56,086 nt of DNA from Coriobacteriia bacterium (GCA_030536315.1 JAUNQF010000007.1:1-56086); one strand, 5' to 3'; counted from the stretch's first letter, positions 1,464 to 27,610 are shown. Translations and numbers: made by a program. Notes: generated from the sequence alone by a model not told the origin.

Positions 1464-1472
1464 TTAGTAAGG

Positions 1473-1519
1473 TCTCGCGCGCCCAGCGAGATATTTTCGA
1501 AATTTTTCGAAGAAAAATT
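1473..1519 (+). promoter_or_regulatory. Tandem hairpins between citF and mutS
   Basis: Two inverted repeats lie in the 123-base gap after citF. The first pairs TCTCGC (1473-1478) with GCGAGA (1486-1491) over a 7-base loop and is followed by TATTTT. The second pairs AATTTTTC (1501-1508) with GAAAAATT (1512-1519) over a 3-base loop. Another GCGAGACT near 1546 could pair with the first arm instead, so alternative folds are possible. This may be a weak terminator, an mRNA-processing site or an attenuator that sets citF and glutamate mutase to different levels. The role is inferred. Confidence 0.4.
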
Positions 1520-1586
1520 CGTCGAAAGTATCGAGCGGAAGGCAGCGAGACTGGAAATAGTAAAACGAGATAAAAAGGAGATGAGA

Positions 1587-1991
1587 ATGAGTAAAAAAAT
1601 TGTTATTGGTGTTATTGGTGCAGATGTTCATGCTGTTGGCAACAAGATTATGGACCGCGCACTAAGCGATGCTGGTTACGAAGTTATTAACTTGGGTGTA
1701 ACAGTTTCGCAAGAAGAATTCATCAACGCTGCTATCGAGTCAGACGCTGATGCAATTTTGGTTTCTTCGCTTTATGGCCAAGGCGAACTTGACTGCCGTG
1801 GCATGCGTCAAAAATGCGAAGAGGCTGGCATTGCTAAGATTCTTCTTTATGTTGGCGGTAACGTTGTTATCGGCAAGCAGAAGTTTGACGATGTCGAAAA
1901 GCGCTTTAAGGAGATGGGCTTTGACAGGGTTTTCCCTCCAGGAACTGATCCTGACGAAGACATTAAGTGTCTTAAGGAAGACTTAAAATAA
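1587..1991 (+). CDS. mutS: Glutamate mutase sigma subunit (B12-binding)
   Basis: A 134-residue protein matching the small cobalamin-binding subunit of glutamate mutase (MutS/GlmS, about 137 residues). The DxHxxG signature, which provides the lower axial His ligand to cobalt, is seen as D13-V-H15-A-V-G18. The family segments SSLYGQGE and GGNVVIGKQ are present. Together with MutE it interconverts L-glutamate and (2S,3S)-3-methylaspartate. The start at 1587 is preferred over the ATG at 1581 because AAGGAG at 1575-1580 then has a normal 6-base spacing. The next gene, glmL, begins 9 bases after the stop. Confidence 0.95.
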
Positions 1992-2000
1992 AGGATTTTT

Positions 2001-3491
2001 GTGAAGCCTGTATTGCTCATAGATTTTGGTAGTACTTACACAAAGGTAACAGCCGTTGATGTTGACGGCGAAAAACTTTTGGGTACAGGTCAATCATGAA
2101 CCACAATCGAGACAGATATTAACGAAGGTCTTGAGAAGGCTGTTGCCAACATGGAAAAAGAGACGGGCAAGCTTGATTTTGAAGAGCGTTATGCCTGTTC
2201 TTCGGCAGCTGGAGGCCTAAAGATTGTATCTGTTGGCTTGGTTCCAGAGCTCACTGCTGAAGCCGCGAAGATGGCATCTTTGGGTGCTGGCGGTAAAGTT
2301 TTGGGTTCATTTGCCTTTGAGCTTACAGATTCCGACGCCAAACAAATTGCTGAACTTAAGCCTGAAATTATTTTGCTTGTTGGCGGAACTGATGGTGGCA
2401 ATAGTGAATGTATCTTGCATAATTCTAAGGTTATTGCAGATATCGAAGGGGACTTCGCTGTTATTATTGCCGGCAACAGAAACACTACTGATGAATGTGT
2501 TAAAAATATTTCTGGCAAACACAAAACTTACACTTGTGAAAATGTTATGCCAAAATTTAATCAGTTAAATATTTTGCCAACGCAAAAATTAATTCGTGAT
2601 ATTTTCCTTGAGAGAATCATCACTGCGAAGGGCTTGACTAAAGCAACAAGTTTGGTTAGCGGAATTGTTAATCCGACTCCGGCTGCTGTTATGCGTGGAA
2701 TTCAGCTTTTGGCTGAAGGCACAAAAGACGAAGCCGGAATAGGTGAGCTTATCGCTGTAGATGTTGGTGGTGCCACAACAGATATTTATACAATTTGTCA
2801 TGGGACTCCAACTCGTGGAAATACTGTTTTTAAAGGCCTTCCTGAACCTTATGCGAAGCGTACTGTTGAAGGCGATATTGGAATGCGCTATAGCATTCAT
2901 GGTATTGTTGAGGCTGCTGGAATCGATAGAATTTGCGAAATTTCTGGCCTGTCAGGGGACGAAGTTCGCGAAATGGTTGACCGTTTAAGTAAGCACACCG
3001 ATGAAGTTCCAAACGATGAGAAGACCGAAGCGCTTGACTTCGCGCTGGCTTCGATGGCAATCGACACTGCAGTTGACAGGCATTCGGGTAAGGTTGAAGA
3101 AGTCTTTACAGTTATGGGTTCAACATTTATGCAAACAGGCAAGGATCTTTCAAACGTCAACAAAATTGTTGTTACTGGCGGAAGCTTGATCCACACAAAA
3201 AGAACTGACGAAATTGCGGCTAACGCATTATTTACTTTGAATTCTCCTCAATCACTTCGACCAATTAAGGCCGATGTTTTGGTTGATAGGGAATACATTA
3301 TCGCATCCATGGGGCTTTTGTCCGAGCATTACCCAGAGGTCGCTCTTCATATTATGAAGGATAAACTTGAGGATATGGGCGAGGTTGAAAGTGCCGATGC
3401 AAAGGCTATGCAAGGTGGCGGCATAGCAGACAACGAAGCGCCGAGCAGCGGTTTTAAGCCAATGACTGACGCTAATTGCCACGGATTTTAA
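2001..3491 (+). CDS. glmL: Glutamate mutase-associated ATPase GlmL/MutL (one in-frame TGA)
   Basis: A 496-residue protein of the GlmL/MutL family, encoded between the mutase subunits. It has an actin/Hsp70-like ATPase fold and is thought to act as a repair or assembly factor for the B12 enzyme. The phosphate-1 loop DFGSTYTK is at residues 8-15 and the second glycine-rich loop DVGGATTDIYT is near residue 254. The start is GTG at 2001 with AAGGA just upstream. Reading the standard code would truncate the first 50 residues, because TGA at 2097-2099 is in frame. Read as Trp it restores the N-terminal ATPase motif. It ends with TAA. Confidence 0.93.
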
Positions 3492-3545
3492 TTTGGTAAT
3501 TATTTAATTACGATAAATGTTGTTATTTTTTGGAAAGGAGAAAAA

Positions 3546-5045
3546 ATGGAAGTAAAGAATAAGAGAATTTCTGATGCAGCTTTCGAAGCAGAGCGACAGG
3601 AGGTCCTCAAGACTTGGCCTACAGGTTCCGAAGTTGACTTTGATGAAGCAGTCAAATATCAAAGTAAACTTAAGGGAGACCTTCGCTTCGCTGATAAACT
3701 TCGTGAGGCTCAAAAAGTAAAGAAAACCCTTGTCCAGCCTCGTGCTGGTGTTCCTGTCCTTGAAGAGCATGTAAAGTTGATGCGCTTCTTGGAGAAGTTC
3801 GGTAATGTTGATTTGTTACCTTCTACAATCGATTCTTACACCCGTCTTAACAGGTATAAGGAAGCTGAGGAAGGTCTTCGTCAATCTATTATCGAAGGTC
3901 GTGCTTTGATGAACGGTGTTCCTATCGTAAATCATGGCGTAAATCAAAGTAGAATTATTGTCGAAGCAGTTCATACACCGCTTCAAATTCGTCACGGTAC
4001 GCCAGATGCAAGGTTGCTATGCGAAATTTCTTACGCTGCTGGATTTACCAGTTTTGAGGGTGGTGGTGTTTCTTACAACCTTCCTTATTGTAAGAAAATT
4101 CCTATGGAAGATACAATCAAGACATGGCAATATGTTGACCGCTTAACTGGTGCTTATGCAGAGAAGGGTATCGTTATCAATCGTGAGCCTTATGGTCCAC
4201 TTACTGGTACTTTGGTTCCACCATGTATTTCTCATGCAGTTGCTGTTATCGAAGCAATTTTGGCAGCTGAGCAAGGTGTTAAAAACGTTACAGTTGGTTA
4301 TGGTCAATGTGGAAACATCACTCAAGATGTTGCTGCAATTCATACTCTTGAAACTCTAACAAACGAATATCTCGAAAAATATGGCTACAAAGATGTTGAG
4401 GTCACAACCGTTCTTCATGAATGGATGGGTGGTTTCCCAGCTGATGAGAGCCAAGCCTTCGGTGTTATTGCTCTTGGTGCTACTTGCGCTGCCTTATCTA
4501 AGGCAACAAAAGTTATTGTTAAGAGTCCTCACGAAGCTGTTGGTATTCCAACAATGTATGCTAATTCTCAAGGTTGCAGGTGCACCAAGCAGGTTATTAA
4601 CATGCTTTATGAACAAAGCTACAGTGCCCATAATCTTAACGAAGAAGAGGAAATGATTCTTAAAGAAACTCGTGCTATCCTTGACAAGACAATCGAGCTT
4701 GGTGATGGTGACTGGGCTGTTGGATGCTGTCGTGCAGTTGATGCTGGCGTTATTGACGTTCCATTTGCTCCATGTGCAGCAAATGCTGGTCTCATGCTTC
4801 CTGCTCGTGACAATGATGGTGCTGTTAGAATCATGGATATGGGTAACTTGCCATTCGACAAAGAAATTAAAGATTGGCATAAGGCCAAATTTGAAAAACG
4901 TGCTAAGTTTGAAAAGCGCGATGTTCACTTCAATATGGTTGTTGATGATATTTATGCTATCGAGCGTGGACACGTTGTTGGCCGTCCAGAATATAAGAAC
5001 GAAGCTCAGGGCGTAACAACCTTGACTGAAGAATCGACACTTTAA
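3546..5045 (+). CDS. mutE: Glutamate mutase epsilon subunit
   Basis: A 499-residue protein matching the catalytic TIM-barrel subunit of glutamate mutase (MutE/GlmE, about 483 residues). It holds glutamate and the adenosyl group over the cobalamin supplied by MutS. Recognisable segments are PRAGVPVLEEHV, IRHGTPDARLL, FEGGGVSYNLPYCK and INREPYGPLTGTLVPPCI. AAGGAG at 3535-3540 gives a clear ribosome site. All tryptophans use TGG, unlike the membrane and housekeeping genes later in the window, which fits a highly expressed catabolic enzyme. A small duplication near the C-terminus (AKFEKRAKFEKR) may account for some of the extra length. Confidence 0.95.
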   Translation: MEVKNKRISDAAFEAERQEVLKTWPTGSEVDFDEAVKYQSKLKGDLRFADKLREAQKVKKTLVQPRAGVPVLEEHVKLMRFLEKFGNVDLLPSTIDSYTRLNRYKEAEEGLRQSIIEGRALMNGVPIVNHGVNQSRIIVEAVHTPLQIRHGTPDARLLCEISYAAGFTSFEGGGVSYNLPYCKKIPMEDTIKTWQYVDRLTGAYAEKGIVINREPYGPLTGTLVPPCISHAVAVIEAILAAEQGVKNVTVGYGQCGNITQDVAAIHTLETLTNEYLEKYGYKDVEVTTVLHEWMGGFPADESQAFGVIALGATCAALSKATKVIVKSPHEAVGIPTMYANSQGCRCTKQVINMLYEQSYSAHNLNEEEEMILKETRAILDKTIELGDGDWAVGCCRAVDAGVIDVPFAPCAANAGLMLPARDNDGAVRIMDMGNLPFDKEIKDWHKAKFEKRAKFEKRDVHFNMVVDDIYAIERGHVVGRPEYKNEAQGVTTLTEESTL

Positions 5046-5064
5046 TTTATAAGGAGGAGAAAAA

Positions 5065-6315
5065 ATGAAAATTGTTGATGTAGTTTGTAGTCCAGGTCGT
5101 ACAGGTTTTTACTTTGACGATCAACGTGCTATTAAACAAGGTGCTGGTCATGATGGTATTTTCTATACCGGCACACCTGTAACAGAAGGCTTTACTTCAA
5201 TTCGTATGGCTGGCGAGTCTATTTCTGTACAAATTGTATTAGAAGACGGACAGGTTGCTTATGGCGATTGCGCTGCAGTTCAGTATTCAGGTGCTGGCGG
5301 ACGTGACCCATTGTTCTTGGCTAAGGATTTTATCCCAATCATCGAAGAGCACATTAAGCCTACTTTGATTGGTAAGGAAGCTGATAACTTCCGTCAACTT
5401 GCCGAAGACATGGAGAAAATCCAGGTTAACGGCAAGCGTCTTCATACAGCAATTCGTTATGGTGTAAGCCAGGCTCTAATCGATGCTGTTGCTCGTGCTA
5501 ACCACAAGCAAATTTGTGAAGTTGTAGCTGATGAATACGAAGGCTGCGAACTTAAACCAGAACTTGTTGACATCTTTACACAATCTGGTGACGACCGTTA
5601 TGACGGTGCTGACAAGATGATTATCAAGGGAGCTCAAGTTCTCCCACACGCTCTTATCAACCATGTTGCTGATAAGCTCGGAAATAACGGTGAGAAGTTG
5701 TTAGAGTATGTTGGCTGGTTGCGCGACAGAATTCTTAACAACCGTACAGACGAAAACTATAATCCAATTTTCCATATTGACTGCTATGGAACTATTGGTG
5801 CTGTTTTTGGCAATAATAACTATAAAGAAATGGCTGATTACATCGAGAAGTTGGGTGAGCAAGCAAAGCCATTCCATCTTCGTATTGAAGGACCTATGGA
5901 CTGTGATACTAATCGTGAAGAACAGATTGAAGCTTTGGCTGGTCTTACTAAAGAGATTGATGACCGTGGCATTGATGTTGAGCTTGTTGCTGATGAATGG
6001 TGCAACACTCTTGACGATGTTAAGGCATTTACTGATGCTCATGCTGGTCATATGGCTCAAATCAAGACACCTGATCTTGGCGGTATCAACAACACTATTG
6101 AAGCTGTTTTGTATTGCAAGGCAAACGGAATGGGTGCTTATCAAGGTGGCACATGTAACGAAACTGATCGTTCTGCTCGAATTCTTACACAGTGCGCTTT
6201 GGCTACTCGTCCAAAGCAAATCCTTGCAAAACCAGGTATGGGTGTAGACGAAGGCTACATGTTAGTTTATAACGAAATGCAACGTGCAGTTGCACTTCTC
6301 AAATCCAAAAAATAA
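5065..6315 (+). CDS. mal: Methylaspartate ammonia-lyase
   Basis: A 416-residue enolase-superfamily enzyme, close to the 413 residues of the clostridial protein. It removes ammonia from (2S,3S)-3-methylaspartate to give mesaconate, the step after glutamate mutase. The catalytic lysine of the family is seen in AQIKTPDLGG (K about 334). The metal-binding acidic residues lie in HIDCYGTIG, LRIEGPMDCD and VADEWCN. The strong ribosome site AAGGAGGAG precedes the ATG. Only TGG encodes Trp. It is the last gene of the cluster; a terminator-like hairpin follows. Mesaconase is not in the window. Confidence 0.95.
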   Translation: MKIVDVVCSPGRTGFYFDDQRAIKQGAGHDGIFYTGTPVTEGFTSIRMAGESISVQIVLEDGQVAYGDCAAVQYSGAGGRDPLFLAKDFIPIIEEHIKPTLIGKEADNFRQLAEDMEKIQVNGKRLHTAIRYGVSQALIDAVARANHKQICEVVADEYEGCELKPELVDIFTQSGDDRYDGADKMIIKGAQVLPHALINHVADKLGNNGEKLLEYVGWLRDRILNNRTDENYNPIFHIDCYGTIGAVFGNNNYKEMADYIEKLGEQAKPFHLRIEGPMDCDTNREEQIEALAGLTKEIDDRGIDVELVADEWCNTLDDVKAFTDAHAGHMAQIKTPDLGGINNTIEAVLYCKANGMGAYQGGTCNETDRSARILTQCALATRPKQILAKPGMGVDEGYMLVYNEMQRAVALLKSKK

Positions 6316-13402: not shown

Positions 13403-14302
13403 ATGTTAGACAAAAACAAGGTAAAGTTGGGTATTGCTCCAATTGCCTGGACTAACGATGACCTGCCAGATCTTGGTGCAGAAAACACATTTGAACAATG
13501 CGTATCTGAAATGGCTTTGGCGGGCTTTACCGGAAGTGAGGTAGGAAACAAGTATCCAAAAGATCCAGAAGTTTTAAAGAAAGCTTTGGATCTAAGAGGG
13601 ATTGAAATTTGCAACCAATGGTTTTCAAGTTTCATTATCACAAAGCCATTTGAAGAAGTCGAAAAAGAATTTAGAGCCCAATGTGAGTTTTTGAAAGCAA
13701 TGGGCTCTAAAATTATTGGCGCTTCTGAGCAAAGTCACAGCGTTCAAGGAATGCAAGACACACCAATTTTTGGTCATAAGTATGAAATGAACGACGACGA
13801 GTGGAAGACATTTTGCGATGGCTGCAACAAGTTAGGAAAAATTGCCCTTGAAGATTACGGCATTACAATGACCTATCATCATCACATGGGCACAGTTGTT
13901 CAATCAGCTGCTGAAACCGACAGAATGTTGGACGGTACAGATTCTAAGTATTTCAACTTGCTATTTGACACTGGACACTTTAAGTATTGCGACGAAGACC
14001 CAACTGCTTTGGTTAAAAAGTATATTGGTCGTATCAAGCATGTTCACTTAAAGGACATTCGCCCTGAAGTTGTTCAAAAAGTTAAAGATGAAGACATGAG
14101 CTTTTTAGACGGCGTTCGCGCTGGTGCATTTACTGTTCCAGGAGACGGTTGCATTGACTTCGTTCCTGTCTTTGAAACTTTGGAAGAAGCAGGCTATGAG
14201 GGCTATATGCTTGTCGAAGCCGAGCAGGATCCAGCTGTTGCTAATCCGCTTGAATACGCTATTAAGGCTCGTAAGTTTATTGCCGATAAGGCTGGTATAT
14301 AG
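13403..14302 (+). CDS. iolE: Inosose dehydratase
   Basis: A 299-residue TIM-barrel enzyme of the xylose-isomerase-like/AP-endonuclease-2 superfamily. It dehydrates 2-keto-myo-inositol (scyllo-inosose) to the diketone that IolD hydrolyses. Visible signatures are GIAPIAWTNDD at the N-terminus, TYHHHMGT, LLFDTGHFKY, HVHLKD and GYMLVEAEQDP, which supply metal ligands. Trp is encoded only by TGG. It is the first gene of the iolE-iolG-transporter-iolD-iolB operon. Confidence 0.93.
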   Translation: MLDKNKVKLGIAPIAWTNDDLPDLGAENTFEQCVSEMALAGFTGSEVGNKYPKDPEVLKKALDLRGIEICNQWFSSFIITKPFEEVEKEFRAQCEFLKAMGSKIIGASEQSHSVQGMQDTPIFGHKYEMNDDEWKTFCDGCNKLGKIALEDYGITMTYHHHMGTVVQSAAETDRMLDGTDSKYFNLLFDTGHFKYCDEDPTALVKKYIGRIKHVHLKDIRPEVVQKVKDEDMSFLDGVRAGAFTVPGDGCIDFVPVFETLEEAGYEGYMLVEAEQDPAVANPLEYAIKARKFIADKAGI

Positions 14303-14329: not shown

Positions 14330-15337
14330 ATGATTGAAGTAGGAATTATTGGAGGAGGCCGTATCGGCCAGGTTCATGCAACAAGTATTTTTACACGTGT
14401 TCCAAATGCTCACGTTAAAACTCTTGCTGATGAATACCTAAACGAAAACATTGAAAAGTTTGCTGCTGCAAACGGAGTTGGACAATGTGTTAAGGATTAT
14501 CATGAAATTTTAAATGATCCTGAGATTGATGCAGTTTTAATTTGCACACCAACACCAACTCACACACCAATTTCAATTGAAGCTATCGAGGCTGGCAAAA
14601 ACGTATTTTGCGAAAAGCCAATCGATCACGAAATTGAAAACATCAACAAAGTTATTGAGGCTCTTAAAGGCTCAAAAGTTAAATATCAAGTTGGCTTTAA
14701 CCGTCGCTTCGATCATAACTTTAAGGCTGTAAAGCAAGCTTCGAAGGATGGCAAAGTAGGCAAGACTGAGATGATCACAATTCAAAGTCGTGATCCAGAG
14801 CCACCTCCAATTGATTATGTAAAAATTTCTGGTGGTATTTTCCTTGATATGATGATTCATGATTTTGACATGGCTCGTTTCTTGGCAGACTGTGAACCAG
14901 TTGAGGTTTATGCCGAAGGTGCTGTTCTTGTTGATAAAGCAATCGGCGAAGCTGGAGACGTTGATACTGCACTTGTTACAATGAGAATGGAAGATGGTTC
15001 TTTGGTTTCAATTAGCAATTCTCGTCGTGCTGCTTATGGTTATGATCAGCAAGCTGAAATCTTTGGAAGCAAAGGCGCTGTTAAATGCGGTAACGATGCT
15101 TCGTCACAAGCTGTTCTTAGCGATGAAAATGGCGTTACGGCTGAAAAACCATTGTTCTTCTTCTTGGAGAGATATATGGATGCTTATGCTGATGAAATTA
15201 AGCAATTTATTGATGCTGTTGAAAATGATACAGACACACCAGTAAATGTTATGGATGGTCTTGAGGCTGTTCGTATCGGTATTGCTGCTACGAAGTCTTG
15301 CAAAGAGCATCGTCCTGTTAAGATGTCCGAAATATAG
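14330..15337 (+). CDS. iolG: Inositol 2-dehydrogenase
   Basis: A 335-residue Gfo/Idh/MocA family dehydrogenase. The Rossmann motif GIIGGGRIGQVHA is at the N-terminus, CEKPID carries the catalytic Lys of the EKP motif, and GFNRRFD plus DMMIHDFDM are the inositol-dehydrogenase signatures. It oxidises myo-inositol to 2-keto-myo-inositol with NAD+, the step before IolE. AAGGAGGAG gives a strong ribosome site. It ends with TAG, nine bases before the transporter start. Confidence 0.93.
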   Translation: MIEVGIIGGGRIGQVHATSIFTRVPNAHVKTLADEYLNENIEKFAAANGVGQCVKDYHEILNDPEIDAVLICTPTPTHTPISIEAIEAGKNVFCEKPIDHEIENINKVIEALKGSKVKYQVGFNRRFDHNFKAVKQASKDGKVGKTEMITIQSRDPEPPPIDYVKISGGIFLDMMIHDFDMARFLADCEPVEVYAEGAVLVDKAIGEAGDVDTALVTMRMEDGSLVSISNSRRAAYGYDQQAEIFGSKGAVKCGNDASSQAVLSDENGVTAEKPLFFFLERYMDAYADEIKQFIDAVENDTDTPVNVMDGLEAVRIGIAATKSCKEHRPVKMSEI

Positions 15338-15345
15338 GAGGAATT

Positions 15346-16863
15346 ATGCCCCAAAATAAATCTGAGCAAAAACAACACCAGAGAGTAGCCGAAGGAAAAT
15401 CACAGGCACAAACTGGTGGTCACATCAAAAACCTGGTGGGCGATATCCGTCTTAATTGAGGAACCAGGTTTGCTTATGCAAGCGGTGATATTGCTTGCAA
15501 CATCGTATTCGGCACAATTGGTGCTGTGTTAACTCTTTTCTATACTGACTATGTTGGTATTAATGGTGCTGTAGTTGCAACCATTATGCTTATTTGTAGG
15601 TGCTTCGATGGCTTTTCCGATCTAATCATGGGCTTCATAGTAGAGCGAACGAAGTCCAAATGAGGCCAGTCGAGACCTTGGATTTTGTGGATGTCGTTCC
15701 CATTTTCTATAGGTTGCGTCTTGCTGTTTACGGTCCCGCACTTCGATAACGATTTCTTGGTTTATATGTATATTTTCTTGACCTATTTCTTCGTATCGGT
15801 TGTGTGCTACACGGCTGTAAATCTTCCATACGGTTCTTTGTCTTCGATGATGACAAGAAATGCGAAGGAAAGGCAATCGCTTTCTGTAGTTCGTATGGGC
15901 ATGAGCCCAATTGGGAAGATCATTGCTGTTACACTTACAACACCTATTGTTAAAAATTTCTTAGGCGACGACCAGGCAGCATGAGTTACTATCATGATTG
16001 TTTGGGCTATTGTTGCTGAAATTTTATTGTTGATTTGTTTCTTTAATTGTAAAGAACAAGTTGTAATTCCTGGCCGCGAAGATCCTTCGAAGGCAAAAGC
16101 AACTCCAATTCTTAAAGGACTTAAGGCATTGTTTAGCAACCAGTATTTCTGGGCTGTTTTAGTTCTTTGGATGATTCAAAGTGTTGCATTTAGTGTTTCA
16201 GGAACTGCAGGTCAGTATTACACTAAATACGTTTTGTCGGGTAACACTGCAGGATGGACAGCCAGCTTATTTGGCTTTAATCTTGATGCTGAAACCTTGC
16301 AATCTGTATTTGTAGATGTTGAAATTATCTCAATGGTAATATTCATTTTCTTATGCGCTCCAGTTGTTCGTAAGTTTGGTAAAAGAAATACAGCATTCTT
16401 AGGCGCAATTATTGCTTTGGGTGCTCAATTTGTATTCTTGATTAACCCAATGGATGTTAACATTATCCTTCTTACTTGCGCATTAAGAGGTATTGGTTTG
16501 GCGCCGCTAAACGCTGTTGTATTTGCGATGGTTGGTGACGCGATTGAGTTCGGTCAATGAAAGACGCATGTTCGCCAAGAAGGTCTTGTGTTTGCTGGAG
16601 GTTCTGTAGGTACTAAAATTGGTGCCGGTATTGCTTCGGCTGCAATTCCTGCTTTACTTGACTGGTCAGGACAAATCACATCAACTTCTGGCTTTGCAGC
16701 TCAACCAGAAAGCGTAATTCAAATGATTTCAAACATCTACTTTGCTGGTCCATTGATTATTGCAATCATGGCCCTTGTAACATTATTCTTATACAGACTC
16801 GATAAGAAATACGATGATATCGTTGCCGAATTAGCAGAACGCGAAGCGAAAGGACAATTATAA
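15346..16863 (+). CDS. GPH-family cation:sugar symporter (four in-frame TGA)
   Basis: A 505-residue, 12-helix MFS-type transporter of the glycoside-pentoside-hexuronide family. The family motif around GQSRPWILW and the late motif [16 protein letters not shown] are both complete only if TGA is Trp. In-frame TGA are at 15457, 15661, 15982 and 16558. It lies inside the inositol operon between iolG and iolD, so the substrate is probably myo-inositol or an inositol derivative. That is unlike the IolT/IolF sugar porters of Bacillus. The stop overlaps the iolD start by one base (TAATG). Confidence 0.87.
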
Positions 16864-18794
16864 TGGCATCAACAACAAGAATGACAACTGCACAAGCTAT
16901 TGTTAAGTTTTTAGACAACCAATACGTTAGCTTCGACGGTCAAGAAAATAAGTTTGTCCATGGCTTCTTTACAATTTTTGGTCATGGCATTGCTGTTGGA
17001 CTCGGCGAAGCTCTTGACTCCGATGCTGGACGTCTTCATGTTATGCAAGGAAGAAACGAGCAAGGAATGTGTCATGCTGCTATCGCATTTGCGAAGCAAT
17101 CTAACAGACGTCAAATTATTGCTTGTTCTTCAAGTATTGGACCAGGCGCTGCAAATATGGTTACAGCTGCTGCAACTGCAACAGTAAATAACATTCCACT
17201 TTTGCTATTTCCGTCTGATACTTTTGCATCACGTCAGCCTGACCCTGTATTGCAACAGTTAGAACAAAGCTCATCTCTAACAACAACTACAAACGATGCT
17301 TTCAAACCAGTTTGTAAATATTGGGATAGAATTGTTCGTCCTGAACAAGTTATGACGGCGCTTATCAACGCGATGAGAACTTTAACAGACCCTGCAGAAA
17401 CTGGTGCTGTTTGCATCGCGCTTCCACAGGATGTTGAAGGTGAGTCTTTTGATTATCCAAATTATTTCTTCAAGAAACGTGTTCATAAGATTTCGCGTCC
17501 AATTGCTGACAAGTACGAAATTGACGACGTTGTTAAAACAATCAAGGGTTCAAAGAAGCCTCTTGTAATCGTTGGCGGTGGAGTTAAATACTCCGAAGCC
17601 GGGGCCGAAGTTGAAAAGTTTTGCGAGACCTTCAAGATTCCTTTCTCTGAAACTCAAAGCGGAAAGAGTGCTTGCAAAAGCAGCAATAAATATTGCTTGG
17701 GAGGAATTGGCGTTACGGGAACTTCGGCGTCTAACAAGATTGCGAAGCAAGCTGATTGCATAATTTCAATCGGTAGCAGAATGTCTGATTTTACAACTGC
17801 TTCAAAACACCTGTTCCGCAAAGCTGGCGTTAAGTTTGTTAGCCTTAACAACAACAGATATCATGCTTACAAGCTCGATGCTGTTTTTGCTGTGGGTGAT
17901 GCGAAGGCTAACTTGAAAAAGGTTAGTGCTGAACTCAAGCGCTTAAAATATAAGAGTTCTTATAAGAGCGAAATAAAAGACGCTCGTGCTGGTTGAGAAA
18001 AGGAGATGAAGCGTTTGGCTAATCTTCACTACACTGGTAAAAACTTCCAACCAAATATTAAGGCTCGCGACCCTCGAACCGTTAACGAATTCGTTAAGAA
18101 GACAAGTGGTGTTGTAACGCAGACTGGTGCGCTTGCGGCGCTTCGTAACTTTATGGGCAAGGACGACATTATTATTACGGCTGGTGGCAGTTTGCCAAGT
18201 TGTTTGCAACGTATGTGAACGACTGACAAGCGTTATGCCTACCACGCCGAATATGGCTATTCTTGCATGGGTTACGAAGTCCAGGCAACACTTGGTGTTA
18301 AGCTTGCTGCTCCTAAGCAGGATGTTTATGCCGTTGTTGGTGACGGTAGCTTCGTTATGATGAATTCCGAAATGCAAACCATTCTTCAAGAAAAGCAAAA
18401 AGTCACAATTGTTGTTTTTGACAACTGCGGCTTTGGTTGCATTAACAATCTTGAGATGGGCCATGGCATTGGAAGCATCGCAACTGAATTCCGCTACACC
18501 GATGGCAAGAAAAACACTGGCGGCTTGATCTTGACTGATTATGCAAAGGTTGCTGAAGGCTACGGATTTAAGTCTTACACAGCTAAGACTATCGAAGAAT
18601 TCGAAGCTGCTTTAGCTGACACAAAGAAGCAAAAGCTTCCTTGCTTAATTGATTTGAAGGTAATTCCTAAGACCATGACTGATGGTTATGATGCATGGTG
18701 AAATGTTGGAATTGCTACAACTTCAAAGAAAGCAAGTGTTCGTAAGGCTGCAAAAGACGTGTTAGAGCATAGAAAACAAGCGAGGGTTTATTAA
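16863..18794 (+). CDS. iolD: Trihydroxycyclohexane-1,2-dione hydrolase IolD (three in-frame TGA)
   Basis: A 643-residue thiamine-diphosphate enzyme. It opens the ring of 3D-trihydroxycyclohexane-1,2-dione to 5-deoxyglucuronate. The N-terminal ThDP glutamate lies in RNEQGMCHA. The central domain begins near [13 protein letters not shown]. The C-terminal cofactor domain carries [13 protein letters not shown] and [12 protein letters not shown], the GDG...N metal-binding motif. TGA at 17994, 18216 (QRMWTTD) and 18699 are Trp. Length matches the family (about 640). It is coupled to the transporter upstream and separated by one base from iolB downstream. Confidence 0.94.
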
Positions 18795-18795
18795 T

Positions 18796-19602
18796 ATGTC
18801 AAAAGTTTTTGGATATCCAGAATATGATGATAATAACGTAATGCAAATTACAGAATACGAAGGCGACTATGCAGACATGATGATGGACATCTTCGTTAAG
18901 AAGTTAAACGCTGGGGAAGAATTTGAGATTTGTCGTGAAGGCGAAGAAGTGGCCGCACTTTTACTTGGTGGAGATATTGACTTCTTCTACACAAGCAATC
19001 CTGGAGCAGACTTCGAAGGCCCATTTAGTGCAAAGCGTAAAGATGTTTTCGAAAAAGCTTCTTGGGCTGTTCATGTTTGCAGTGGTCGCGCAATTAAAAT
19101 TGTAGCGAAGGCAGAATCTGAGGTTCTAATCCAAGCAACTCATAATGACAAGGAATTTGAAAGCAAGTTCTATGTCCCAGAAGATTCGCCTTGGTCTAAC
19201 GGATATCCAGGAAAGTTTGGCGATGTAGCTAACAGGTGAGTAAACACCATTTTTGACTACGAACATAAACCTGAAAGTAATATGGTGCTGGGGGAGATAT
19301 TAAACAAGCCAGGTAACTGGTCAGGGTATCTTCCTCATGCCCATCCTCAACCCGAAGTTTATTTTTTCCGTTTCGATAGGCCCGAAGGTTTCGGCGCCAG
19401 CTTCGTAGGTGATGATGTTTATAAAAGCGTGAATAATAGCTTTTCTGCTATTCCAGGCGGCAAGCTTCATCCACAAAGTGCTGCACCGGGCTACCAAATG
19501 TGGACTTGCTGGATGATTCGTCACTTCGATGACAAGCCATGGCTTCAAACAGACAGATGCGAAGATGAGCGCTATACTTGGCTTCATAATGCTAAAATAT
19601 AG
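18796..19602 (+). CDS. iolB: 5-deoxy-glucuronate isomerase (one in-frame TGA)
   Basis: A 268-residue bicupin protein matching IolB. It isomerises 5-deoxy-D-glucuronate to 2-deoxy-5-keto-gluconate. Visible in the second cupin are GNWSGYLPHAHPQPEVYFF, carrying the metal-binding HxH and Glu, and a conserved H-P-Q-S-A-A-P-G-Y-Q region. TGA at 19237-19239 (DVANRWVNTIFD) is Trp. The remaining pathway enzymes IolC (kinase), IolJ (aldolase) and IolA are not in the window. It ends with TAG, five bases before the next gene. Confidence 0.92.
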
Positions 19603-21324: not shown

Positions 21325-21343
21325 AATTTTTAAGTTAAAAATT
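21325..21343. promoter_or_regulatory. Perfect 19-base palindrome upstream of the methylase
   Basis: AATTTTTAA (21325-21333), a central G, then TTAAAAATT (21335-21343). It lies between the candidate -10 at 21286 and the methylase start, about 67 bases upstream of the ATG. It could be an operator at which the methylase or another protein controls expression of the restriction-modification operon, or an AT-rich terminator stem. No controller-protein gene is present nearby. Confidence 0.4.
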
Positions 21344-21410
21344 GTCATTTATTGTGTATTATACAAATGTCAATAAAATATGTTTGTTCTTTATGAGAGA
21401 AAGAAGAAAT

Positions 21411-22406
21411 ATGAAACTTTTATCATTATTTTCAGGATGTGGTGGTTTAGATCTAGGCTTTGAACAGGCAGGATTTAAAATTGCTGTCGCTAATGAATTT
21501 GATAAAAGCATTTGAAAAACTTTTGAGATTAACCATCCAGAAACGGTACTAATTAAAGGTGATATTAGAAATATTTTAGAAACTTCATTTCCAAAAGATG
21601 TCGACGGAATAATAGGTGGTCCTCCTTGTCAAAGTTGATCTGAAGCCGGCTCGCATAGGGGAATATCTGACGAAAGAGGTAAGCTTTTTCACGACTATAT
21701 TAGAGTTCTTAACGCCATAAAACCAAAGTTTTTTCTAGCTGAAAATGTTCGCGGAATGCTGTCGTGCAAGCATTCAGAAGCTGTTAACAATATTATAGAG
21801 CTTTTTAAAGAAAGTGGTTATGACCTTCATATTAATGTAGTAAACGCTAAAGATTATGGTGTTGCCCAAGAAAGAAAACGTGTTTTTTATATTGGGTTCA
21901 GGAAAGATATTAATGTTGATTTTCAGTTTCCAACTGGTTCAACTTCATCTGACGAGGACAAAATTACAATTAGAGATGTAATACAGGACCTTCAAGAAAC
22001 AGTAATGGCAGCTTCAGAAAATAACAAACATAATCCCAAGGCGATAAACAATAACGAGTATTTTGTCGGGAGTTATTCTCCAATGTTTATGAGCCGAAAT
22101 AGAGTTAAGGACTGAGACGAGCAAGCATATACTATTCAAGCCTCCGGAAGGCAGTGTCAACTTCATCCACAGGCACCAAAAATGCAGAAGAAAAAGCCTG
22201 ACGAATATATTTTTGTACCTGGCAAAGAAAAACTATATAGAAGACTAAGCGTTCGAGAAATAGCAAGAATTCAAGGATTCCCTGATACCTTTAAATTTGT
22301 CTATAATGACATCAATGATGCGTATAAAATGATCGGCAATGCCGTGCCGGTCAATCTCGCTTATGAGGTTGCATTATCTATAAAAAAAGCATTAGAGGTA
22401 GCTTAA
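21411..22406 (+). CDS. DNA (cytosine-5) methyltransferase (three in-frame TGA)
   Basis: A 331-residue C5 cytosine methylase. Motif I is [16 protein letters not shown], motif IV is GGPPCQSWSEAG with the catalytic C73, motif VI is ENVRGM, and motif VIII is the [12 protein letters not shown] segment. Target-domain sequence includes [16 protein letters not shown], and motif X is [17 protein letters not shown] at 21513, 21636 and 22113 are Trp; no TGG occurs. The neighbour is a HaeIII-family endonuclease, so the expected target is GGCC. ATG 21411 was chosen; an in-frame ATG at 21393 would add six residues. It ends with TAA one base before the endonuclease. Confidence 0.92.
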
Positions 22407-22407
22407 G

Positions 22408-23361
22408 ATGGCCAAGAATAATGTAGATAACGGAAGAGCTTTTGAGTATGCGTTTATTGAAAACCTCAATTTAGAGATTTCCAAATCAAGGACATCTTCA
22501 ATAATCAATAATTCGTCTTACTATACGTCAAAATGCTCTTTTGAGTCTTTAGACAATAATATTAGCGACAATCTTGTAAAGGCATCCAAAGCTGCCATTC
22601 CAACAATATTGGAACTTGAGCCTATGATTTTAAAAGACGATAAAGAAGATTTGCATTTAAGGATTCAATCAGATGAGCAGGGTGAGATCGGCGACGTTAG
22701 AGATATTGTTGTGGACAAAAGCAGCATAGGTTGAGAAGTCGGATTAAGCATGAAACATAATCATTTTGCAGTTAAACATAGTAGATTAAGTTCAAAAATT
22801 GATTTTGCAGAAAAATGATTTGGTAAAAAATGCTCTGATATTTACTGAAAAGAAGTTAGACCAATATTCTCAAATCTCGAGAAACTAAAAGAAAAAAACA
22901 TGAAATGGTCTGATTTGGAAAACAAAGAAGATGACGTATATGTACCTTTACTTAAGTCATTTTTAAAAGAGCTATCATTTCAGTATGAAGCAGACAGTTC
23001 TATCCCAGGAAAGCTTGTTGAGTATTTACTGGGTAAGTACGATTTTTATAAGGTTGTTGGCGTTGATTCTAACGAAAGAACCGAGATACAAGTTTTTAAT
23101 ATTCATGGTACATTAAATAAACAAGCAAGCAAATCATCAAAATCTATAAGGATTGGTGTTGCAAAATTGCCGACTCGCATCATTAATATTGGATTTAAGC
23201 CAAGCTCAAAGAATACTGTTGAACTATATTTGGATAATGGTTGGCAGTTTACATTTAGGATACACAACGCAGCTACCAAGGTGGAGTCTAGTTTAAAATT
23301 TGACATACAAATCGTTGGTGCACCAACAACAATTGAAACTATTAATTGTCGTTGAAGATAA
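22408..23361 (+). CDS. HaeIII-family type II restriction endonuclease (four in-frame TGA)
   Basis: A 317-residue protein resembling the HaeIII restriction endonuclease family. The recognisable order is NGRAFEYAF at the N-terminus, GEIGDVRDIVV, SMKHNHFAVKHSRLSSKIDFA, KLVEYLLGKYDFYKVVG, LPTRIINIG and NGWQFTFRIHNAATKVESSLKFDI. Prediction: cleavage of GGCC, protected by the methylase upstream. TGA at 22732, 22816, 22846 and 23353 are in frame. The last lies two codons before TAA (CRWR), so the protein ends either there or at the old stop. Two Trp use TGG. Codon and word usage differ from the rest of the window, suggesting recent acquisition. Confidence 0.88.
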
Positions 23362-23377
23362 TTTTCGAAGCACAATA

Positions 23378-24637
23378 TTAGCTGTCGGAGTCAATAATCA
23401 CAGGGAGGGTGGCGCCGCCGAATGGCATTGCAATAACGTTTGCGTTATCGCCATACTTCTTTAGCGCATCATTAAATGCTTCTTGTGCAGAAGCTTTTGG
23501 ATTTAAGAATAGGCTTCTAACAAAATCGTCGTCCATTTCAGATACAAGGTCTATATTAGCGAAGTCGAGGACCATCGCGATGGCCGCAGCCTTGTGGCCA
23601 CCCAACTCGAAGTCGGATTTGACTCGTTGAATAAGATCTTTCGGTTCATTGGCGTCCATAAATCATTGCTCAAACTTAGCGCTTCCGAGACCTTCGTTGC
23701 AAGCGCCAATTACGATAATTGTTCCACCATCTTTAACAGCATATTTTGCGTTTTCTAAGGCTTTCTGTGTTTGATAAAGGTTCGCGTCCTTAGGAGCACC
23801 GCCTTGTGAGACAAGAACAATATCAGCTTTTTCTGGAATAGGGCATCTGTACATTTTGTCCAAATATTCGACAGCGCATTTATGCGCTTCGAATACGTCT
23901 CCTGCAGAACCAAATACAATATTTTTATGCTCATCAAGTACAACGTTCACGATAAAGTCTAAGCCGAGCTTAGAGCCAGCTTCGTTAATGTCGTCTCGAA
24001 CAGGGTTGCCATCCATATTCCCGGCAACTGCTTTTGGATGTGTCATCATTGAGTGGTTTGCTTGAATTGCTAATGGGGTAGAAACACCTGGCATTAAGGC
24101 TTTGTACCCGCCAGAATATCCAGCGAAATAGTGGAATTCTACATTGCCAAGGGCTATTCTAAAGTCTGCATCTACAACACGTTTGTCAAAATCAATCGGA
24201 GTTCCTTGCTTGGTTTTGCCAAGAGAAACGCAATTATTTACATCACTGTCTACAACAGTAACTTCATTGAAGCAACGATCACCAACAAGATGCTTTTTTT
24301 CTTCTTCTGTATGCTCTCTGTGCGAGCCTAAAGCGAGCACAATAACAATGTTTTGCGCCTCTGCGCCAGCTCTATATAATTCATCAAGCAAACTTGGCAT
24401 TATATCCCAAGAAGGTAACGGACGTGAAATGTCACTCGTGATAATAGCGATTTTCTTGCCAGAAAGATCATATTCAGAAAGTCGCTTCGCGCCAATAGGA
24501 TTTTGCAAGGCAAAATCTACAGCATCTACACCGGTTTGTTCATGACTGATTGGATTGCTATGCAATTCAGCAATGAGGTTCCCATCGGGAACCTCAACTG
24601 TTTGAATAGTATTTCCGTAACCAAAGTCTAGTTTCAT
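23378..24637 (-). CDS. larA: LarA family nickel-dependent racemase (one in-frame TGA)
   Basis: A 419-residue LarA-family protein. SDISRPLP and LALGSHR supply N-terminal active-site residues, including the His after GS. EFHYFAGYSGGYKALMPG contains the Lys that binds the nickel-pincer nucleotide in lactate racemase. QGGAPKDANLYQTQKALENA is the C-terminal signature. TGA at plus-strand 23660-23662 (FEQWFMDA) is Trp. The family racemises lactate or other 2-hydroxy acids and needs LarB/LarC/LarE to make its cofactor; those are not in the window. The start overlaps the pgk stop by one base, so it is coupled to archaeal-type pgk. The substrate is uncertain. Confidence 0.85.
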
Positions 24638-25896
24638 TATTTGTCATTACCGAAAGTTTTAGTTGCATAGCGCAAAGCACTAACAACAGGGAGCTCATCT
24701 CCAGTAAGGAAACGGATGAGAGCTCCGCCGCCTGTGCATACATAACCAAGTTTGTCAGTAATATTGTACTTCTTGGCAGCTGTTACGCTGTCGCCTCCGC
24801 CAACTACAGTATGAGCCGAAGTCTCGGCCATGGCTTCGTAGATTGCTTTTGAGCCAGTTTCAGAGACTGCTTCTTCGAAGACACCCATAGGCCCGTTAGC
24901 AAACACAGTTTGCGAATTCATAATAACATCAACGAAGTTCTCTATGGTCTTGTCACCAATATCAACAACATCTTTATCATCAGGAATATTGTCTAAGTCA
25001 ACAACAATTCGTTTGTCGCCTTCAACATAAGCAACATCCACTGGAGCAATAATCTTATCACCATATTTCTCAAGATGCTTTTTAGCAACATCAATATACT
25101 CAGTAAAGCCTTTCTTATCAATGAAGTCAAGATTAGACTTGCCGATATTGATCCCTTTAGCAGCTAAAACAACTTGTCCAGCAAGTCCGCCTGTGACAAC
25201 TTTATCAGCTGTACCATTGCCAAGAACAGTGTCCATCATAATGAAGGCGTCAGCAATTTTAGCTCCTCCAAGTACAAAAGTGCAAGGACGAGCAGGATTG
25301 CTCATAAGCTCAGAGATTACAACATATTCTTTTTCAAAAAGACGACCCATTGCGCTTGGAAGTTTATGTTCAAAACCGCATAGGGAGGGTTGATTACGAT
25401 GTGCAGCCGCAAAAGCGTCACATACATAAAGGTCAGCGAGCGGAGCAAGCTTTCTTACCAAATAGGTTTCCGCTTGCTCTTCTTGAGAAAGACCAAGTTT
25501 ATTTTCGAAAAGTGTCATTTCTTCAGACATATAACGAACATTGTCCATAAGAATAATTTCGCCGTTCTTCAAGTTCTTGATTTGTTCTTGTGCATAAGGC
25601 CCGCAAACATCGTCAATCCAGCGAACTTCTTTACCCAAAAGTTCGGTTAGAACTTTAGCATGTGGGCGAGTGCAGTAGAAGTTTTTGTATTCGATGTCGC
25701 TTCCTTGATGACATAAAACAACAAGCTTAGCACCTTTGTCAGAAATTTCTTTTAGTGTTGGAGCGCAAGCTTCGATTCTATGAGTGCTGTTAAGCGAATC
25801 AGTTTCGCGGTTGACGGGCTGATTCATGTCAACACGACAAAGAACAGTTTTGCCTTCTAAATTAAAATCGTCCAAATCATTGATTTCGAATTTCAT
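24637..25896 (-). CDS. pgk: Phosphoglycerate kinase, archaeal type
   Basis: A 419-residue phosphoglycerate kinase. CRVDMNQPVN, STHRIEA, VVLCHQGSDIEYKNF and MDNVRYMSEE follow the archaeal PGK pattern; bacterial enzymes have RVDFNVP, DTRI and SHLGRP. NGPMGVFE and GGGDSVTAA near the C-terminus bind the nucleotide. It makes ATP and 3-phosphoglycerate from 1,3-bisphosphoglycerate. The gene follows an archaeal-type GAPDH gene by eight bases, and together they cover the two linked steps of lower glycolysis. The only visible Trp (RWIDDVC) is TGG. It is coupled to larA by a one-base overlap. Confidence 0.93.
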   Translation of the reverse strand: MKFEINDLDDFNLEGKTVLCRVDMNQPVNRETDSLNSTHRIEACAPTLKEISDKGAKLVVLCHQGSDIEYKNFYCTRPHAKVLTELLGKEVRWIDDVCGPYAQEQIKNLKNGEIILMDNVRYMSEEMTLFENKLGLSQEEQAETYLVRKLAPLADLYVCDAFAAAHRNQPSLCGFEHKLPSAMGRLFEKEYVVISELMSNPARPCTFVLGGAKIADAFIMMDTVLGNGTADKVVTGGLAGQVVLAAKGINIGKSNLDFIDKKGFTEYIDVAKKHLEKYGDKIIAPVDVAYVEGDKRIVVDLDNIPDDKDVVDIGDKTIENFVDVIMNSQTVFANGPMGVFEEAVSETGSKAIYEAMAETSAHTVVGGGDSVTAAKKYNITDKLGYVCTGGGALIRFLTGDELPVVSALRYATKTFGNDK

Positions 25897-25904
25897 AATT
25901 CTCC

Positions 25905-26954
25905 TTATTTAAATGCGCCAATGTTGAGGCATTTGTTGGTAGCAGCTGTGCCTTCTTCGCGAGTAGTTTGCATTCCTGTGCAAGCACGAACAGCATCCAT
26001 GGTCTCAGGAATTGTTACAGATTCTTGAGGAATGTTGATTGCGAACATTAGGTCATCGCCACTTTCAACAATGCTGTCTTCCCAAAGACCAATCTCATAC
26101 ATGTCACCACGGCGATTGCCAAGATCACGTGCATATTTAAATAGGGAAGCATTTCCTTTGAAGCCTTCGTCGATATTAACCACTCGAATACGTGGGTGAG
26201 CCTGGAAAGCAGCAAGTGCTTTATCAGCAGGAATCTTTTTACCGTCTTTACCACGAACAACGCAAGTGATGATGTGTCCGTGAGTAACAGGTGTGTGGAT
26301 TAATATACCAGTTGCATCAACATGAGGCATAATTGTCATAAGATCAATCGCCTGGTGATTTGGAGCCTTGTCCATCTCAAGCGCATTGGTAAGTCCACGA
26401 TGATAATCACCTGGGTCAGCAACACGACGAACAATTGTGATAGCAGCTTTCTCAACTCCGAATTCACGGTCTAAGCAATCAACAGCACGAATTAGACCTG
26501 TTGTATTGCAAGATGTAAGTTTCAAGTAATTTTGACCAACACCTTTTTCAAAGTTTGCGTAACCATGGAAGAATACATCAGCAACTTCGTTCTTTTCTCC
26601 ACCTTGGAAAATTGCTTTTACTCCCAATGGTTCATAATATTTTTCTTTATTAGAAGCACCAACGCCGCCTGGAGAAGAATCCAACATAACGTCAACTTCT
26701 TTGCAAAGCTCTTCGAAAGTTCCAGCAACTGGAATTCCTTTTGCGTCGAAAGCTTTTTTATCTGCGCCTTCGACAAGGTATAGTTTGTATTCAACACCGT
26801 TAGCACCAATCATGTCTTTTTCGCGAAGTGCCTGAAGTGCCAAAGTAGGGGCTAAGTCAGCAATTCCAACTAGCTCCATGTCGTCTTGTTGAGCAACGCC
26901 ATCAGCAAGACGCATTCCGATAGTGCCGTATCCGGCAACACCTACTTTAATCAT
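25905..26954 (-). CDS. gap2: Glyceraldehyde-3-phosphate dehydrogenase, archaeal (type II) family
   Basis: A 349-residue dehydrogenase. VGVAGYGTIGMRLADGV at the N-terminus, LDSSPGGVGASN, FQGGEKNEVADVFFHGYANF and the catalytic LTSCNTTGLIR (C149) match the type II (archaeal) GAPDH family. The bacterial/eukaryotic SCTTN type is not matched. It oxidises glyceraldehyde 3-phosphate to 1,3-bisphosphoglycerate with NAD(P)+. A strong AGGAGG precedes the ATG. It starts 26 bases after the metallo-hydrolase stop, so they may share an mRNA. Trp is TGG (GLWEDS). A phylogeny would show whether it came from archaea or from bacteria that already carried this type. Confidence 0.93.
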   Translation of the reverse strand: MIKVGVAGYGTIGMRLADGVAQQDDMELVGIADLAPTLALQALREKDMIGANGVEYKLYLVEGADKKAFDAKGIPVAGTFEELCKEVDVMLDSSPGGVGASNKEKYYEPLGVKAIFQGGEKNEVADVFFHGYANFEKGVGQNYLKLTSCNTTGLIRAVDCLDREFGVEKAAITIVRRVADPGDYHRGLTNALEMDKAPNHQAIDLMTIMPHVDATGILIHTPVTHGHIITCVVRGKDGKKIPADKALAAFQAHPRIRVVNIDEGFKGNASLFKYARDLGNRRGDMYEIGLWEDSIVESGDDLMFAINIPQESVTIPETMDAVRACTGMQTTREEGTAATNKCLNIGAFK

Positions 26955-26980: not shown

Positions 26981-27610
26981 TTATTGTAGCATAAAATTTC
27001 TTTCATGCTCTATCGTTGTTAATTGGTCATGTCCTGGTAGAACTAATGTGTTATCTGGAAGTTCGGCAAGCTTCGCAAGTGAATTGCGCATGTCAACTTC
27101 GTTTCCGTCTTGGAAATCTGTTCTGCCGCATGAACATCTAAATAAGACATCGCCGCAAATTAGAACTGGGTTTTCTCCACAGTCTTCGCTGAAAAAACAA
27201 ATACTTCCTGGTGTATGACCTGGAGTTTCGATAACTTTTCAAGAGGTAGACCCGATTGGGACAGTGTCTCCATCTTTTAATTTTGTATCAATTTTGCACG
27301 AGTCAGTTTTTCTATAAAGTGGAGCTTTTTCCGTGTCTTCGATGAATGGAGCATCTTTCTCCGAAGCAAAGGTTTTAGCGGAAGTTGCAGCTTGAACTTC
27401 GGCAAGTGCTCGGACGTGATCTCAATGATAGTGGGTTAGAAGTATCTTGTCCAATTTGTTGCTTATCATCTCAAGGATTTGGCCTGCATTGCAAGCAGGA
27501 TCCACCAGAGCTTTTTCGCCTTCGCTTTCAAGGACAAAGACATTGTTTCCAAGCATGCCAAGTTGAGCAACGCTAATTTTTATTTTTTCTGATTCATAAA
27601 TTATTTCCAT
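26981..27610 (-). CDS. Metallo-beta-lactamase fold hydrolase, GloB-like (two in-frame TGA)
   Basis: A 209-residue MBL-fold hydrolase of the glyoxalase II-like group. The zinc motif LLTHYHWDHV (H60, H62, D64, H65) contains a TGA-encoded Trp (plus-strand 27422-27424). ETPGHTPGSICFF, CGDVLFRCSCGRTDF and LPGHDQLTTI provide the later metal ligands. A second TGA is at 27239-27241 (STSWKVIET). Members hydrolyse thioesters such as hydroxyacyl-thiols; the substrate is unknown. It lies 26 bases upstream of the archaeal-type GAPDH gene on the same strand and is divergent from feoAB. Confidence 0.86.

Follow-up and report, generated by a model that had tools for sequence, protein, structure and literature searches.

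A bacterial type II GAPDH–PGK gene pair and a proposed phosphorylation-free branch of myo-inositol degradation

The gene pair and the inositol operon in the window

We analysed a 56,086-nucleotide stretch of DNA from a Coriobacteriia bacterium (GCA_030536315.1 JAUNQF010000007.1:1-56086, here called the window), in which a glyceraldehyde-3-phosphate dehydrogenase (GAPDH) gene and a phosphoglycerate kinase (PGK) gene, both of archaeal type, lie side by side on the minus strand and are followed by a gene for a LarA protein. The GAPDH-family gene (25905-26954, 349 aa), assigned to a bacterial type II clade on its model match, its clade position and Asp33, scores 386.6 bits against the NCBIfam type II model NF003251 (cut-off 185) and 275.4 bits against TIGR01546 (cut-off 232.9), gives only 22 bits with the type I model, and has its SCNTTG catalytic cysteine motif at residues 148-153. 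The PGK-family gene (24637-25896, 419 aa) matches Pfam PF00162 over its whole length (381.9 bits), contains both RVDMNQPVN and CHQG, and retains intact nucleotide-site motifs (GGAK, NGPMGVFE and GGGDS); its closest solved structure is the archaeal 2CUN (303.5 bits), the best bacterial structure reaching 235 bits. Eight base pairs separate the GAPDH and PGK genes, and base 24637 is common to the stop of PGK and the start of the gene for a LarAH6-type nickel-dependent malate racemase (LarA, 23378-24637, minus strand). The motifs of both enzymes, their eight-base spacing and the coupling to LarA had been pointed out in an earlier interpretation of the DNA (the sequence-only reading), and all of them hold. 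The same reading had drawn in a GloB-like hydrolase, whose gene does lie upstream of the pair (26981-27610, minus strand, two in-frame TGA codons; 109 bits against GSH_gloB, under the cut-off of 200.8). It is probably no member of the conserved module and we reject it as such, as the tblastn neighbourhoods of relatives do not have it beside the pair.

LarA forms a single 419-aa frame only when the TGA at codon 325 is read as tryptophan, and under this reading (code 4) it scores 527 bits against the LarAH6 malate racemase model NF052593 (cut-off 500). At this codon 37 of 41 relatives have Trp. Three in-frame TGA codons of iolD likewise align with Trp in 28-31 of 35 relatives, and further in-frame TGA codons lie within genes on contigs C1 and C2 of the same genome. 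Because the in-frame TGA codons sit at Trp columns of relatives and recur on these contigs, the alignments indicate that TGA is Trp in this genome. Such codons occur throughout the window (1-56086) and contigs C1, C2 and C16, in iolD, LarA, FeoB, PTS, ThyX and other genes. The genome has ∼40% G+C, its class relatives mostly lying near 60%, and this use of TGA at ∼40% G+C might reflect either a changed genetic code in a group of this kind or a misplaced genome.

The window also carries an inositol operon on the plus strand. It comprises iolE (myo-inosose-2 dehydratase, 13403-14302; TIGR04379, 408.5 bits, cut-off 290), iolG (inositol 2-dehydrogenase, 14330-15337; TIGR04380, 460.2 bits, cut-off 355), a GPH-type sugar:cation symporter gene (15346-16863; TIGR00792, 310 bits in code 4, cut-off 231), iolD (trihydroxycyclohexane-1,2-dione acylhydrolase, 16863-18794; TIGR04377, 902.7 bits, cut-off 715) and a gene for a divergent, IolB-like 5-deoxy-glucuronate isomerase (18796-19602). 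Among the canonical iol products, IolD, IolE and IolG pass their cut-offs and the IolB-like protein falls below its own (TIGR04378, 73 bits, cut-off 205); it does exceed the cut-off of the KduI Pfam model and is 60% identical to the GAPDH-adjacent IolB of a relative (locus L036). From its position, the symporter is a probable inositol uptake system. Between the operon and the GAPDH-PGK-LarA genes lies a HaeIII-type cytosine methylase and restriction enzyme pair (21342-23361).

Further enzymes are encoded elsewhere in the genome. A split transketolase is found on contig C16 (2138-3911), its N subunit nesting inside the transketolases of iol clusters (support 98) and apart from the genome's other transketolase on C22, and a malic enzyme on contig C1 is 72% identical to a cluster member.

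Clade membership and active-site residues

When 84,980 species genomes were scanned with the GAPDH, 60 bacterial relatives came out, 59-84% identical and mostly from Clostridia and spirochaetes; below them followed only archaeal sequences, at no more than 43%. In quick trees, in which some archaeal branches are long, the bacterial GAPDH sequences form a single clade (68 rows, support 100) separate from 23 archaeal rows, and the cluster PGKs form one clade (62 rows, support 99), outside which lie both the archaeal PGKs and 29 ordinary bacterial PGKs. The pair's bacterial clade stands beside the archaeal sequences, not within them, and neither protein falls inside the ordinary bacterial PGK or the archaeal clades, a placement among ordinary bacterial enzymes being what the sequence-only reading had named as evidence against itself. 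The pairs of loci L069-L071 and L093, from Christensenella-like genomes, are in the same clade.

Within these trees the window's GAPDH and PGK nest among Clostridia sequences. A type II GAPDH over the cut-off occurs in 2 of 248 genomes of the window's class, and the second (L005) is a different, high-GC protein outside the cluster clade, with no PGK or LarA within its 4 kb. Because the window's copies nest among Clostridia sequences and the class is otherwise without them, they most likely came from Clostridia, together as a pair. The earlier suggestion of archaeal-type families travelling as a pair is thereby upheld, and joint transfer of the two genes appears likely. A direct archaeal origin and an archaeal glycolysis module are not upheld: we reject direct archaeal transfer on the tree position and on an archaeal identity of ≤43%, against 59-84% for the bacterial relatives.

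The active-site columns of the GAPDH differ family-wide from the archaeal ones, for example in the change from SHHGPD to a SHQAVD-type sequence. At position 33 all 23 archaeal rows have Lys; the window's protein and 64 of 67 relatives have Asp. By the usual rule Asp33 favours NAD over NADP, so that the window's GAPDH would be of NAD type; NADP use is rejected by the same inference from residue 33 (Asp for the archaeal Lys), and the NADP+ preference of type II enzymes raised in the sequence-only reading is not borne out. In PGK the telling position is Arg65, which we take from general knowledge of PGK structures to be a ligand of the 3-phosphate. Each of the 62 cluster PGKs has Ser, Asp or Gly in its place (Ser in the window). 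All 9 archaeal PGKs have Arg or Lys there, as do 26 of the 29 ordinary ones, and the ordinary PGKs come almost entirely from genomes that also carry cluster PGKs.

Gene neighbourhoods and the distribution of IolC

The neighbourhoods of the relatives were determined with tblastn on fetched flanks and, as many of the contigs are short, the counts of neighbouring genes are minima. PGK lies in the flanks of 54 of the 60 bacterial relatives, and the pairing exceeds chance, since in 52 of these 54 the PGK is encoded on the GAPDH strand and no more than 600 bp away. One of iolB, D, E or G is nearby in 33 of the 60, the transketolase N subunit in 30, a LarAH6-like LarA in 31 and malic enzyme in 23. 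Neither IolC nor transaldolase was found near the pair in the fetched flanks of any of the 60, and IolA was not found adjoining it in the relatives. IolN-type (3-dehydro-scyllo-inosose hydrolase) genes lie at L180:3866-4996, L040:2987-4111 and L092:10118-11083.

The scarcity of IolC extends to whole genomes. Of 30 carrier genomes, one has an IolC over the cut-off; the window's genome, which is 75% complete, does not (best score 44.8 bits, cut-off 300). As a control we drew 321 genomes evenly from the Clostridia, the class of Dorea D27, of which 22 have IolD over its cut-off. Ten of these 22 have IolC over the cut-off and one more has a broken IolC beside iolD; the cluster GAPDH is present in 7, in 6 of them next to iol genes, and IolC and the cluster GAPDH occur together in none (Fisher p 0.004, indicative since the genomes are related). 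In the remaining 4, and in the seventh GAPDH genome, the iol cluster itself encodes a transaldolase, mostly along with an IolA-type or acylating aldehyde dehydrogenase. The 22 genomes split in this way into kinase, transaldolase and transketolase types, paralleling the sulfo-Embden-Meyerhof-Parnas (sulfo-EMP), sulfo-transaldolase (sulfo-TAL) and sulfo-transketolase (sulfo-TK) routes of sulfoquinovose degradation (PMC9594981), and by this analogy the transaldolase clusters represent a probable third, sulfo-TAL-like inositol route. The transaldolase of iolC-less iol clusters is found at L158:5910-6986 (minus strand), with homologues in L159, L160, L161 and L165.

A proposed route through malic semialdehyde

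Reading the gene content, the conserved neighbourhoods, the lack of IolC, the clade structure and the residue changes together, we consider it probable that the two enzymes act in a phosphorylation-free branch of myo-inositol degradation, in which malic semialdehyde would be converted to D-malate with formation of ATP. From these data we infer the reactions of the transketolase and of the GAPDH and PGK homologues, as well as the acceptor of the C2 unit. In this scheme IolG, IolE, IolD and IolB would make 5-dehydro-2-deoxy-D-gluconate (DKG), and the dedicated split transketolase would replace phosphorylation by IolC and cleavage by IolJ, moving the C5-C6 ketol unit of DKG to a sugar phosphate and leaving (R)-malic semialdehyde. 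The GAPDH homologue would then turn this aldehyde, with NAD+ and phosphate, into malyl phosphate, from which the PGK homologue and ADP would yield D-malate and ATP. LarA would convert D-malate to L-malate, and malic enzyme would finally give pyruvate and CO2.

Written from its CH2OH end, DKG is CH2OH-CO-CHOH-CHOH-CH2-COO–, with D-threo centres as in xylulose-5-phosphate, of which it is a carboxylate analogue. (R)-malic semialdehyde (CHO-CHOH-CH2-COO–) in turn has the shape and configuration of D-glyceraldehyde-3-phosphate (G3P), with –COO– in place of –OPO3. A scripted check of the configuration gives R for the malate derived from carbon 3 of DKG, which explains why a malate racemase stands ahead of malic enzyme. 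The altered phosphate site of PGK and Asp33 of GAPDH fit the proposed route.

Some loci suggest that the aldehyde may be supplied in other ways. In Sinanaerobacter and at L087, which have no iol genes nearby, a GABA-type aminotransferase gene precedes a GAPDH-PGK-malic enzyme-LarA series, and is a plausible second source of malic semialdehyde. In Acetobacterium and at one Clostridium magnum locus the same series is preceded by parts of a pyruvate/acetoin-dehydrogenase-like complex, possibly another source of a C4 aldehyde. A 3-hydroxyacyl-CoA-dehydrogenase-like gene accompanies this complex (L065:272-5972, L067 and, with the complex partial, L073). The malate-forming core would then be constant among loci while the source of the aldehyde varies.

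Several observations weigh against this assignment. The transketolase and malic enzyme genes lie on contigs other than the window's, and a search for LarE, the nickel-pincer synthesis protein on which LarA depends for its cofactor, found none in the window's 75% complete genome; among ten carriers, LarE is over its cut-off in eight. Sinanaerobacter has both IolC and the cluster GAPDH, and four fully flanked loci (L069, L070, L071 and L093) have no inositol or malate partners. The change at position 65 of PGK is not decisive, as Asp also occurs there in 3 of the 29 ordinary PGKs (L118-L145 and 3UWD set). Of the second, bacterial-type set that the sequence-only reading had considered, contig C2 encodes a complete GAPDH of the ordinary type I; an ordinary PGK was not found in what is a 75% complete genome, only the cluster PGK, and for this reason the window's PGK could also serve glycolysis in this reduced genome. 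The substrate, too, may be broader than malic semialdehyde. In Dorea D27 and at L040 and L092 the GAPDH-PGK-transketolase set lies beside IolN-type inositol genes (at L040 by the likeness of its open reading frames to those of Dorea), and the ketose of an IolN route would give a dihydroxy C4 aldehyde instead.

If the pair were an additional, archaeal-like set for glycolysis or gluconeogenesis that uses G3P and 3-phosphoglycerate and has been placed under inositol control to handle inositol-derived triose phosphate, then the failure of the incomplete genome to yield an ordinary PGK would be accounted for, as would the scores of both enzymes over their family cut-offs and the unbroken catalytic Cys and PGK nucleotide motifs. 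We nevertheless regard this as unlikely. An ordinary PGK (488-584 bits) is present in 28 of 29 other carriers, nearly all of them having it alongside the cluster PGK (340-395 bits); this and the type I GAPDH also speak against a role in carrying the glycolytic flux. IolC, needed to obtain triose phosphate from DKG, is missing from nearly all carriers, the 3-phosphate site of PGK is altered in every cluster member, and the malate racemase, malic enzyme and transketolase would be left unexplained. In addition, the type II GAPDH of Pseudoclostridium thermosuccinogenes, which may fall outside the cluster clade, was inactive in a G3P assay (PMC6543838). More doubtful still is a general activity of the pair on the C4 aldehyde acids, malic and dihydroxy semialdehydes alike, that transketolase would release from several keto-hexonates. 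The Dorea D27 set, which has IolN- and UxaE-type (epimerase) genes beside it and no iolD, and the IolN gene beside the set at L092 would suit such breadth, but most loci have the iolD route, a malate racemase or malic enzyme, and so point to malate. Least likely is oxidation of malonate semialdehyde through malonyl phosphate to malonate and ATP in place of IolA. Inositol degradation usually gives malonate semialdehyde as its C3 product, and no IolA was found next to the pair, but this route needs an aldolase or transaldolase where the pair's clusters have a transketolase, and the transaldolase clusters have an IolA-type or acylating aldehyde dehydrogenase, not the GAPDH-PGK pair. Malonate semialdehyde moreover has no 2-hydroxyl, and the malate enzymes would serve no purpose.

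The proposed malic semialdehyde branch shares its upper half with the canonical route of Bacillus subtilis and Anaerostipes, in which IolGEDB are followed by the IolC kinase, the IolJ aldolase and IolA (PMC8355322). The steps up to DKG (IolG, IolE, IolD and IolB-like) are common to both, whereas here IolC is lacking, DKG would be cleaved unphosphorylated, and malate rather than malonate semialdehyde would result. In using a transketolase on an acid that mimics a sugar phosphate, and in having parallel transaldolase and kinase/aldolase routes, it resembles the sulfo-TK pathway (SqwGH; PMC9594981). It differs in that the acid is a carboxylate, not a sulfonate, and that the C4 product would be oxidised with a gain of ATP instead of being excreted or isomerised. 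The split transketolase is present here, and the pathway genes identified beside the pair are inositol genes, sulfoquinovose genes lying outside the search. With archaeal type II GAPDH and PGK the pair shares the fold family, SCNTTG, HQG and, in some archaea, the gene adjacency; it is set apart by its separate bacterial clade, Asp33, altered pocket columns and a non-basic residue at PGK position 65.

The intermediates themselves have precedents. The conversion of malic semialdehyde via D-malate to pyruvate is experimentally known from L-carnitine degradation in Acinetobacter (PMC11353897), which uses a non-phosphorylating aldehyde dehydrogenase and D-malate dehydrogenase where we propose ATP formation and a racemase. 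A synthetic 2,4-dihydroxybutyrate pathway (PMC5481828) has a similar chemistry, with a malate kinase and a malate semialdehyde dehydrogenase that were derived by engineering of aspartate enzymes and act on the other carboxyl group (malyl-4-phosphate); its authors describe these activities as previously unreported. We found no description of a transketolase or transaldolase branch of inositol degradation in the open-access literature that was searched.

Elsewhere in the window, positions 36-6315 hold methylaspartate (glutamate mutase) fermentation genes: citrate lyase alpha-like, mutase S, GlmL-like, mutase E and methylaspartate ammonia-lyase.

Plant diets and soils are rich in inositol and phytate. 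A large survey of inositol genes counted iolC among four core genes and ascribed a missing core gene mainly to incompleteness, assembly error or frameshift (PMC9430895), and for this reason bacteria that cleave unphosphorylated DKG could be missed or misinterpreted in it. With slightly less confidence than we have in the role of the pair itself, we think that this is an undescribed and widespread inositol pathway of anaerobes, whose lower half would copy pentose-phosphate and glycolytic chemistry with carboxylate in place of phosphate. Glycolytic enzymes have probably been re-used here on carboxylate mimics of their substrates, by analogy with sulfoglycolysis. According to a 2019 paper, functional evidence for bacterial type II GAPDH does not exist (PMC6543838), and our proposal gives this family a testable role. 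If true, it would provide that role together with a natural malic-semialdehyde phosphorylating dehydrogenase and a malyl-phosphate kinase, enzymes of the kind engineered in synthetic biology (PMC5481828).

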